Shown here in pieces: positions 2,888 to 31,486 of a stretch of 35,661 bases of DNA. The stretch is from contig NEWT02000033.1 in NCBI GenBank assembly GCA_002869925.2, forward strand, positions 60,734-96,394, read 5' to 3'. The notes beneath the pieces are model-generated. The model did no database searches and was not told where the DNA came from. It worked only from the letters and a program-made list of their open reading frames with translations. Both the position numbers and the translations under genes were made by a program. The first letter of the stretch is position 1. Each line of letters opens with the position of its first letter. Source of the DNA: Nitrospira sp. CG24A. Lineage in GTDB: Bacteria > Nitrospirota > Nitrospiria > Nitrospirales > Nitrospiraceae.

Positions 2888-3273
2888 GGTGATATTCGGT
2901 CGATTCGAATGGTCGGTACATCCATCACTCGCCTCAGTACCGAGGCATCCCCGAGAATGCGGCCGATGACATTGACGCGGTCGGCCGGAACGGGATCCTG
3001 CCCCATGCTCATCGGTGTGCGACCGAAGAAAATAGCCAGGACCTGTCCTGCACCCCAGAATGCGACATCGCCGACTTTGACCTGATTCGTTGCGGTCTCG
3101 CGATGGTCTTTCACCCCGGCCAGCTTAAAATAGAATTCTTCGCCCCACGTATTGACCGGGCTTTCTATCGGTAAAGCCGCATAAACTTCTTGCGCCGTTT
3201 TTGTCGACTTGAGTTCCGCGTCAAGCTGTACGGATCCAACGGTAATGCGAATTTTATTGAGAAGATCAGCCAT
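2884..3273 (-). CDS. Cyclophilin-like domain protein (TM1367 type)
   Basis: The product has 129 residues. Several segments match the small bacterial cyclophilin-like fold family typified by TM1367: LPIESPVNTWGEEFYFKL, then KVGDVAFWGAGQVLAIFFGRTPMS, then NVIGRI. These proteins share the cyclophilin barrel, but peptidyl-prolyl isomerase activity is not established for them. I start at ATG 3273 (MADLLNKIRITVGS); ten upstream residues in an open frame look non-conserved. It is the first gene of the five-gene minus-strand operon ending in bcp, and is divergent from the nuclease gene at 3379. Confidence 0.8.
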   Translation of the reverse strand: MADLLNKIRITVGSVQLDAELKSTKTAQEVYAALPIESPVNTWGEEFYFKLAGVKDHRETATNQVKVGDVAFWGAGQVLAIFFGRTPMSMGQDPVPADRVNVIGRILGDASVLRRVMDVPTIRIDRISP

Positions 3274-29454: not shown

Positions 29455-29883
29455 TCTGGCTCAAAGTACTCAGGTCACGCAGAATAACGAATGCATTACT
29501 CCATTGTTTTCATTTCATACGAAACACGCCCGCCCCATTACCTTCGCCCCATCACCTGAATAGATTTTAGCCTACGAGGCTTCTAACGCCTCCTCCGCTC
29601 TATGGATAGCGATTCGCAGTCGTACTCGAAGCGTCTGTATTTCAGAAAAAAAGAAAACTTTCATGCTTTGGATGGTTCTTCCTGAATCATCAACCTTGTT
29701 CAAGGACTGATACGCCGTGAAACAAGAGCATGCCATGGACCTGAAGAATTCTGTGTCTCGGTCATACCACAAAATGTACTTGCACTGTACTCTGTGAAGA
29801 GACGCGAGACAGAAGCATGAATCGTTGAGTGACGCGCAAGTCCCACCATTCACCTCAGCCAATCTGCCTCTCACCTGCGGCGA
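29455..29883. other. Intergenic stretch between the PilB-like gene and an IS remnant
   Basis: There is no confident gene, terminator or RNA here. The only coding-like signal is the minus-strand frame at 29572-29874, listed separately. AT content rises compared with the preceding genes. Confidence 0.5.
29572..29874 (-). CDS. Doubtful small protein or gene remnant
   Basis: The frame allows 100 residues. The last 60 or so look protein-like: helical and charged (FFRSMACSCFTAYQSLN, EIQTLRVRLRIAIHRAEEA). The first 30 are Cys-rich and unconvincing. The frame begins 10 bases from an insertion-sequence remnant, so the gene's true 5' end may have been lost. Internal ATG codons (for example MACSCFTAYQ) could be starts. 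No family was recognised. Confidence 0.3.
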   Translation of the reverse strand: MRGRLAEVNGGTCASLNDSCFCLASLHRVQCKYILWYDRDTEFFRSMACSCFTAYQSLNKVDDSGRTIQSMKVFFFSEIQTLRVRLRIAIHRAEEALEAS

Positions 29884-30305
29884 ACCAGTTTCTGACAGGC
29901 TATCTGCCGATCTACAATCAGCGCGTCACTGTTCCGCCACCCCAGGTCGCCGATCTGCATCGCCTCCGTCCTGCGAGCTGCGATCTGGACCGGAGCCTGT
30001 GGCTCAAGACCCCACGAGGCCGCGTCGGGATTGGACGGTGGCCCACCACGGGTACCTCTACCAGGTGCGGACCAATGTCAGGGCGCCCCTCGTGCTCGTG
30101 GAAGAGCGTGTGGATGGGGACCATGCGGATCACGCACCAGGGTCGGCCGCTCGCCTTTCACGCGATCATATCACGGCCCGTGAAGGTGGTTGAGGCCAAG
30201 ACGGTTCACTCACCCCGGCGCCCGGTCACGCCGAGGCCTGACCATCCGTGGCGCAAGCGCCTGCGGCCAGAACGCACAAGCCACGCGGCGGCGGCCGGAA
30301 CATAA
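29884..30305 (+). pseudogene. Broken 3' end of a transposase gene (ISNCY-like)
   Basis: The segment encodes the C-terminal part of a transposase with two frame changes. It starts NQFLTGYLPIYNQRVTVPP, continues after about 30015 in a second frame as RRDWTVAHHGYLYQV, and returns near 30117 to the first frame as ITHQGRPLAFHAI, ending in a basic tail (PWRKRLRPERTSHAAAA). The N-terminal and catalytic regions are absent. From memory the tail resembles ISNCY-family transposases common in Nitrospira; this was not checked. The gene cannot be functional. Confidence 0.72.
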
Positions 30306-30309
30306 CACC

Positions 30310-30358
30310 GGACATTTCTACTTGGGGAGGAAGAGGACATTTCTATTTGGGCTTGACA
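30310..30358. mobile_element. Right end of the IS remnant with a doubled 17-base motif
   Basis: GGACATTTCTACTTGGG (30310-30326) and GGACATTTCTATTTGGG (30335-30351) are direct copies with one difference, directly downstream of the transposase remnant. Reading inwards the outer copy gives TGTCAAGCCCAAATAG, a plausible terminal repeat. No matching left end was found. Confidence 0.55.
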
Positions 30359-30628
30359 CAAGCTAACTACACCATTTGACTCCCACCATGACCCATGGTA
30401 CTCTGATCCACACTAACAAGTTAACACTAGCCTTAGTGCGCATCGAGTTTCATTTAATGATTTCAGCGCAACGACTTGTGAATAGCCAGTGCGCTTTCGA
30501 TCCTTCGCATTCAGCGCATAGATGCCAGACGAATAGATGGACGGAACATGGTATTTCCATCTGGTCCCTCTGATCTCAATCGGATGGTATTCCACAATGG
30601 AAACAACCAGTTCCATAAAGGAGCATGT
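30359..30628. other. Leader region between the IS end and a small basic gene
   Basis: No gene is recognised. An open frame from 30548 runs into the gene at 30629, but the ribosome-binding site inside it points to 30629 as the start. No clear promoter was seen. Confidence 0.45.
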
Positions 30629-30904
30629 ATGAAGCTATCCTCTGGATGGCGAGCCGACAAAACGAGAAAGAATCGTGCACGGGCGACACGAAAGCCAAAG
30701 ATTCGTTGGGAGGTGCTTGGCCTACCCAATCCTCTTGATAACAGCCTAAGGACTTCAATGGAAGATATCCGTCGGCAAGTGTCAAACATGGCAAGCCGTG
30801 GGTTCGGCCAGGGTACCCGGTCACGCACAGCTGAGCGAGAAGCTAAGACTACTGGCCATGCTCCTGACTCAAGCAACAAGAGACGGCGTGGTGTGGCAGA
30901 ATAA
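30629..30904 (+). CDS. Small basic protein of unknown function
   Basis: The product has 91 residues and is very rich in Lys and Arg (WRADKTRKNRARATRKPKIR near the start, SNKRRRGVAE at the end). It has no hydrophobic segment. AAGGAG five bases before ATG 30629 is a strong ribosome-binding site and decides the start. The composition would suit a nucleic-acid- or ribosome-associated protein, which is inference only. It is followed 93 bases later by a second small basic gene on the same strand. Confidence 0.6.
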   Translation: MKLSSGWRADKTRKNRARATRKPKIRWEVLGLPNPLDNSLRTSMEDIRRQVSNMASRGFGQGTRSRTAEREAKTTGHAPDSSNKRRRGVAE

Positions 30905-30997
30905 TCCTAGTCCTCAATGAAAAGAATTTGCTGGAAACCCTAATAGACAGCAAGCAATTGGCGATTTAATATGAGTTGCTAGACCAAGGAGGACACC

Positions 30998-31189
30998 ATC
31001 GGACGAGCAGGGAAAACCACCATCGCAAAACGTGACCGCGAGAAGGCAAAGCAAATTCAGCGGCGTGAAAAAGATGCCCGTCGAGAACAGCGTAAAACTG
31101 AGAAACCGGTTCGCCCATTAAATACAGATGCAGGGGAAGATCCAGATTTGGCAGGGCTTCAATGGGGCCCCCAAGAGCCTCTGTATTAA
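30998..31189 (+). CDS. Small charged protein apparently starting at ATC
   Basis: The frame encodes 63 residues: GRAGKTTIAKRDREKAKQ, a Lys/Arg/Glu-rich helix, then an acidic end with DPDLAGLQWGPQEPLY. A near-perfect AAGGAGG (30986-30992) stands five bases before an ATC at 30998, where a start is expected. An in-frame TAG lies 18 bases upstream of that ATC. There is no ATG, GTG or TTG near the beginning. The ending resembles small proteins I recall from Nitrospira. Either ATC is used as a rare start codon, or an ATG has mutated, or the base is a sequencing error. Confidence 0.55.
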   Translation: MGRAGKTTIAKRDREKAKQIQRREKDARREQRKTEKPVRPLNTDAGEDPDLAGLQWGPQEPLY

Positions 31190-31486
31190 CGGTAACGTAA
31201 GCATAAGTCTCATACTTCACTCTCCCCGTGCTCGCCTTATAAAATGGTTACCAGCTAACCGTCGTCTAATGTTGTTGAGTCGCTAGTAGGCGATATCTGC
31301 TATGCTGTTGCGTCAAGTTATCTCTCAATAAATTTGTGCAAACAGCCTGGCCTCAATCGCCTATATCCAGCCTTCATATCTAGCGCAGAGCGTGAGCATT
31401 TTTGATGAGGCATATCCACTCTGTTTGATCTCCTCTAGCCGTACGGTTCTAATTTTAGAATTACGTCATCCTCCGATACGACAGAG
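31190..31486. other. Intergenic stretch between convergent genes
   Basis: No gene or RNA is recognised. A short AT-rich palindrome, TTCTAATTTTAGAA (31447-31460), lies 26 bases beyond the helicase stop and has no T-run suited to termination. Confidence 0.45.

Follow-up and report, generated by a model that had tools for sequence, protein, structure and literature searches.

Bacterial genes with non-canonical start codons are already known, with infC, pcnB, sigR and cvfC1 as examples, but according to PMC5472188 experimental characterisation exists for very few such codons. In infC, the gene for IF3, the start codon is ATC in Streptomyces (PMC5472188), AUU in E. coli and AUA in S. aureus, and it is accompanied by a Shine-Dalgarno (SD) site. 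IF3 is described as repressing non-canonical starts, and the autoregulation of infC as established (PMC5472188). The same source presents Streptomyces sigR, a previously misannotated sigma factor gene, as starting at a clade-conserved non-canonical codon (GTC in 32 of 34 cases, GTT in 2) behind a strong SD site, with experimental evidence of repression by IF3. E. coli pcnB (AUU; PMC9410913) is a second chromosomal AUH-start gene besides infC. In S. aureus, as reported in PMC13009471, cvfC1 (AUU) and ccpN (AUA) combine conserved AUH starts with strong SD sites and are backed by ribosome-profiling and reporter data; cvfC1 encodes a small protein of 61 residues whose function is little known. AUU and AUA starts with an extended SD site are reported there to give ~ 10% of the AUG output in poor medium, and among the three sites tested, that of ccpN alone responded clearly to the medium (PMC13009471). 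For AUC itself, a start codon mutation in a B. subtilis fusion is described as leading to much lower expression (PMC10303841), and an ATC start has been proposed for the archaeal gene L12ae of Staphylothermus marinus by alignment to canonical-start relatives (PMC2678158).

The gene considered here is a new, Nitrospira member of this kind. It was found in the window, that is, the whole stretch of 35,661 nucleotides of Nitrospira sp. CG24A that was analysed, where it occupies positions 30998–31189 of the forward strand (stop included) and encodes a basic protein of 63 residues; the assignment draws on purifying selection, alignment and a predicted helix. The ATC start codon (30998–31000, forward strand) was read from the sequence and the homolog alignment. 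It is preceded on the same strand by the SD site AAGGAGG (30986–30992) at a distance of 5 nt, the spacer being ACACC (30993–30997), and from it the translation runs through 63 residues free of stops to the TAA at 31187–31189. The frame is closed upstream by an in-frame TAG (30980–30982, forward strand) 18 nt before the ATC, which is also found at −18 in three related loci (L002, L003 and L011), and no ATG, GTG or TTG lies between this TAG and the ATC. Each element of the first-pass annotation's description, namely AAGGAGG five bases before ATC, a 63-residue frame, an in-frame stop upstream and the absence of a standard start, was thus read at 30980–31189. The list of open reading frames with ATG, GTG or TTG starts and at least 30 aa has no entry for this frame, which is probably a working gene overlooked by ordinary gene finders. 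At the level of sequence, the existence of the gene, its conservation, its ATC start and its strong SD site are established.

With infC the small gene shares an AUH start and an SD site, but the two are non-homologous, and control by IF3, established for infC through its autoregulation (PMC5472188), is for the small gene a conjecture, as it is in comparison with the experimentally studied sigR. Like cvfC1 and ccpN, the gene has a conserved AUH start and a strong SD site, and like cvfC1 it encodes a small protein; the S. aureus genes, however, encode other proteins in another phylum, start at AUU or AUA and are described with expression data (PMC13009471), whereas here the evidence is sequence. 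The sigR gene differs in its GTC start and its sigma factor product (PMC5472188), and pcnB in the protein encoded (PMC9410913). The ATC of L12ae, as described, concerns one archaeal gene in one genome (PMC2678158), while the Nitrospira ATC is conserved across genera. Among the literature matches listed on AUC/ATC starts, infC, IF3 and Nitrospira, we found no account of a 63-residue ATC gene of Nitrospira.

Could such a site be a product of chance? In the genome to which the window belongs (3.36 Mb, 40 contigs), the exact pattern AAGGAGG-N5-ATC occurs at 10 sites, compared with 2 for the reversed control pattern. Only the window site opens a frame of more than 50 codons without a directly adjacent canonical start; the others run into an adjacent ATG or GTG, sit within a longer frame or yield short frames. 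The looser pattern AGGAGG-N4..8-ATH is found at 389 sites, compared with 266 for the reversed control. When the first 30 loci returned, a non-random sample in which the site was read in 29, were passed through a loose filter (at least 40 codons, canonical start absent nearby), one locus (L235) remained. These counts served as a chance control. A lone sighting in a single genome could be chance and is suggestive, short of proof; therefore, the verdict on the start site rests on conservation.

A protein search of genome contigs revealed 35 loci in records of Nitrospira, Nitrospirae, Nitrospiraceae and Nitrospirota. At 34 of them the aligned first codon is ATC, and in all 34 cases GGAGG lies exactly 5 nt before it. 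A homolog is present in 160 of the 175 genomes of the window's family. From the matches listed, with identical 250-nt contexts counted once, we drew 150 distinct loci (145 genomes), which contain the window's own locus and the 34 ATC loci of the contig search and leave out L036, a remote paralog with an ATG of its own. The start is ATC at 148 of these loci, which are related and far from 148 independent events, and ATG at two (L111 and L182, the only loci read from genera g12 and g21); ATT, ATA, GTG and TTG were not encountered in this set. AAGGAGG at the exact 5-nt spacing is present in 133 of the 150 loci and GGAGG at 5 nt in 141, and at L107, two N just before the ATC make the SD site unreadable. 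A search of 24 genomes (weak, unlisted or absent match) gave loci in 10. Of ten loci added later, one (L337) was dropped for a context identical to that of L310, and the remaining nine distinct loci of the main subfamily comprise eight ATC and one ATG. In total, 156 of the 159 distinct loci of the main subfamily start with ATC and three with ATG; the partly degenerate ATC copy L309 is counted here, while remote, partial or broken loci (L306–L308, L344–L346 and L348) and a divergent subfamily with GTG or ATG at the start (L302–L305 and L339–L343) are left out. The ATC gene is present in 14 genera, 13 within the 150 loci and g13 through L338.

Two other subfamilies (L302–L308 and L339–L344) occur in the window's family. 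The MPTHPKVTAAKRQRERDKAEKRKEK-type subfamily, with ATG or GTG, was observed in genera g7, g10, g19, g20 and g22 and resembles the proteins of families f5 and f9; the MSxTxxKRHREQ-type subfamily has ATG, and its host genomes may also carry an ATC copy. Some genomes (G111, G116 and G117) harbor two or three gene copies (L309–L313 and L315), and in G116 a paralog with ATG (L315) accompanies the ATC copy L138 and L309, which looks partly degenerate.

A search across 395 genomes from the phylum listed 19 homologs in outgroup families that belong to the same order and class; a match in f2 (G408) was left out, and all 18 loci read show ATG at the position aligned with the window's ATC (f2 9/9, f5 3/3, f9 5/5 and f13 1/1), e.g. 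MGRPTKVTQAKRNRE against IGRAGKTTIAKRDRE. Family f3 has ATC (2/2, in two genera) and family f4 has ATA (3/3), a change of start within the AUH class. By outgroup comparison ATG is probably the ancestral state, and on the IF3 tree one gain of ATC and one change to ATA would suffice for the small gene. Its simplest history would involve an ancestral ATG, ATC arising before the split of f1, f3 and f4, ATA in f4 and a few returns to ATG. In the comparison with relatives that the first-pass annotation had called for, close relatives carry ATC; ATG relatives, part of one of its refuting conditions, do exist, but in other families or rarely (3 of the 159 loci of the main subfamily). As regards the AUH class, the sequences display an AUH start with no usable canonical alternative, its conservation as a non-canonical codon (148/150, with the ATC of f3 and the ATA of f4) and a strong, well-spaced SD site (AAGGAGG at 5 nt, 133/150).

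The parallel with infC proved closer than the first-pass annotation could know, since in the family itself ATC also stands at the aligned start of infC, in all 34 loci read (L185, L196–L225 and L316–L318). The context is ATC GTN followed by CCN AAR or by AAR, and the ATC is preceded by AGAGGTG- or AGGAGGTG-like sites. In L205, L215 and L317, for example, a stop two codons upstream rules out other starts; some infC frames hold canonical codons further upstream, and there the ATC start was read from the alignment. Families f3, f4, f5, f9 and f13 likewise have ATC in infC (12/12 loci). In the sister family f2, ATG is the likely infC start (6/6: L323–L326, L329 and L333), with an in-frame ATC three codons after the ATG in L326, so that f2 has ATG in both infC (6/6) and the small gene (9/9). 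The infC ATG of f2 suggests that the classical start-codon feedback of infC was lost there.

Elsewhere the two genes part: in f5, f9 and f13, infC has ATC yet the small gene ATG, and genomes G173 and G014, whose main small-gene copy has ATG, keep ATC in infC (L199 and L316). Among the loci read, an AUH small gene is found only where infC has an AUH start, but the converse fails (f5, f9, f13, G173 and G014). The pairing is thus loose, compatible with a shared IF3 circuit and short of demonstrating one. In the IF3 protein tree (midpoint root, support 82/76 for f1+f3+f4, long f13 branch), f2 stands beside f1+f3+f4, and f5, f9 and f13 stand apart; the simplest history of infC would be an ancestral ATC with ATG in f2.

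These data raise a key question: does the AUC start place the small gene under the influence of IF3, or does it simply hold its expression down? We consider it reasonably probable that this is a functional AUC-start gene with a strong SD site and a low, IF3-sensitive output, parallel to infC. In such a mechanism, the near-perfect SD site at a fixed 5-nt spacing would recruit the 30S subunit, and the fMet-tRNA would read AUC with a third-position mismatch. IF3 would reject initiation complexes on codons other than AUG, GUG and UUG and so keep the output of the AUC gene low. When IF3 becomes scarce relative to 30S subunits, the output of the small gene would rise, and infC, apparently with the same AUC start, would respond in parallel. 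Both parts, the lowering of output by AUC in the Nitrospira gene and the control by IF3, are what we infer from the analysis; the first-pass annotation's proposal of a rare start and hence weak, regulated expression fits the evidence. Alternatively, AUC could be a fixed low-output setting, with weak expression and no regulation by IF3, a possibility that we regard as serious though rather doubtful. The same sequence evidence suits it, the genomes with ATC in infC and ATG in the small gene indicate that strict coupling is absent, and for E. coli pcnB the AUU start is described as limiting (PMC9410913). Two observations speak for IF3 and against a fixed setting, although they stop short of proof: infC, too, has an AUC start and an SD site, and f2 has ATG in both genes.

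Another important question is whether the aligned ATC is the start codon or an ordinary isoleucine codon. At residue 9 of the same proteins, isoleucine is encoded by ATC in 57 cases and ATT in 8, and the isoleucine codons of four window genes are divided among ATC (59), ATT (42) and ATA (6). Since an ordinary isoleucine codon should vary and the first codon does not, the aligned ATC can be taken as the start, the more so because distant families carry ATG at this position (18/18). The third position is A in 148 of the 150 loci at codon 2 and likewise at codon 4, compared with 41 loci at codon 8 and 47 at codon 10. It is improbable that translation begins at another codon or in another frame and enters the reading frame by frameshifting or readthrough. 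In its favor, some canonical in-frame codon is present upstream in 23 of the 150 loci; 127 have none. From −4 to +7, moreover, the 150 loci are free of canonical codons in any frame, apart from the ATG of the two loci that start with it and a single ATG at −4, which is also the only one at SD distance in another frame. The ATG outgroups begin at exactly the same codon, and the distance to the SD site is constant.

The small protein is under strong purifying selection, with intact frames, as judged by sequence divergence. Between the window and L039, pS is 0.60 and pN 0.014; between the window and L067 of genus g14, the values are 0.64 and 0.12; and the medians over 147 loci are 0.75 and 0.20. 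The 35-row protein alignment contains 20 invariant columns. The first-pass annotation had offered as its other option that the gene had just been silenced, which would mean a start codon lost in Nitrospira sp. CG24A. Although ATG is probably ancestral and an ATG-to-ATC change in a disrupted gene is described in Neisseria (PMC10210955), ATC is common to 14 genera of the family and two of f3, and pN lies far below pS; because strong purifying selection stands behind the conserved ATC, silencing is excluded for practical purposes. A sequencing or assembly error at 30998–31000, conceivable in an assembly of 40 contigs and allowed for at the outset, deserves virtually no credence, since independent assemblies agree on the codon: it is shared by 34 of the 35 further records, among them the complete N. 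defluvii chromosome FP929003 (L026), whose predicted protein begins [M]ARAGK.

The leader contains a hairpin (30960–30980, forward strand) whose stem, 30960–30967 with 30973–30980, ends five bases before the SD site. The stability of the window sequence alone is not unusual (z 0.01). In an alignment of 24 rows, of which 22 are distinct, from genus g1, that of the window, pairing holds for 94.3% of 176 cells, compared with 22–58% when the stem is slid. Both-sided changes occur in five cells, a count reached by 1 of 500 shuffles, but in only two pairs, a count reached by 185 of 500, and the further pair types were matched by 165 of 500 shuffles. Genus g14 has a different stem abutting the SD site, with no both-sided changes in 11 loci (L025–L035 at 2955–3003, L027 at 487–535). 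The hairpins of g1 and g14 lie directly 5′ of the SD site and are unrelated in sequence, that of g1 with some covariation. Conserved RNA structure was rejected as a general explanation: the two stems differ, and by eye, among the folds listed, other genera share none. We regard the g1 hairpin as a local feature that leaves the SD site free and is of secondary importance. A promoter and terminator scan gave 2 and 2 sites, compared with 1.6 and 1.0 in shuffles, and Rfam matches with an E value of 1 or below were absent from 30300–31486.

As for the encoded protein, no match was found in Pfam at E 1 or better or in PHROGs and NCBIfam, the homolog L182 having PHROGs matches at E 0.21–0.5 only, and a profile of the homolog alignment matched no chain among PDB sequences at E 1 or better. 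The small protein is not IF3 itself, which was ruled out by the lack of a Pfam match and by the location of the genome's one IF3_N match on another contig (C19). AlphaFold predicts one helix (residues 9–35, mean pLDDT 76.6, pTM 0.40), a shape too simple for fold comparison, and the majority sequence of the tail in the alignment is GEDPDLAGLxWGPQxPLY. From charge and shape, our guess is that the basic helix may bind RNA or the ribosome.

A separate ORF of 91 aa (30629–30904, forward strand), which begins with a regular ATG, lies upstream of the AUC gene, as it does in 33 of the 34 contig-search loci; it has no match in Pfam or NCBIfam. A DEAD-box helicase (Pfam) on the other strand is likewise near the gene in 33 of the 34, and these loci belong to the window's genus and g14, so the helicase is a neighbor in two genera. 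The surroundings of the g15 locus L134 differ from those of the window. Further upstream, the spacer at ~ 29825–30366, between what we take to be a pilus-type ATPase gene and the 91-aa ORF, appears longer than in L003. Its overlapping frames have no significant match in Pfam, the motif GGACATTTCTAyTTGGG occurs in it twice, and it is perhaps a decayed mobile element.

Nitrospira are nitrite oxidisers. The retention of AUC in 14 genera and two of f3, with ATG or ATA outside, amounts to a natural experiment on keeping a weak start codon, and it concerns a conserved small-protein family that gene callers restricted to ATG, GTG and TTG would overlook in Nitrospira. One can go further and suggest, as a tentative idea that we think has some chance but would not presume, a two-gene start-codon regulon of Nitrospirales read by IF3. 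It would consist of infC and the gene of the small basic protein, whose target would be the ribosome or its RNA (in subunit assembly, storage or cold adaptation, for instance, the gene having a DEAD-box helicase as neighbor in two genera) and which would be made when IF3 is short relative to 30S subunits; f2 would have dropped, or never joined, the circuit. If this idea is true, free IF3 would set the expression of both infC and the small gene.
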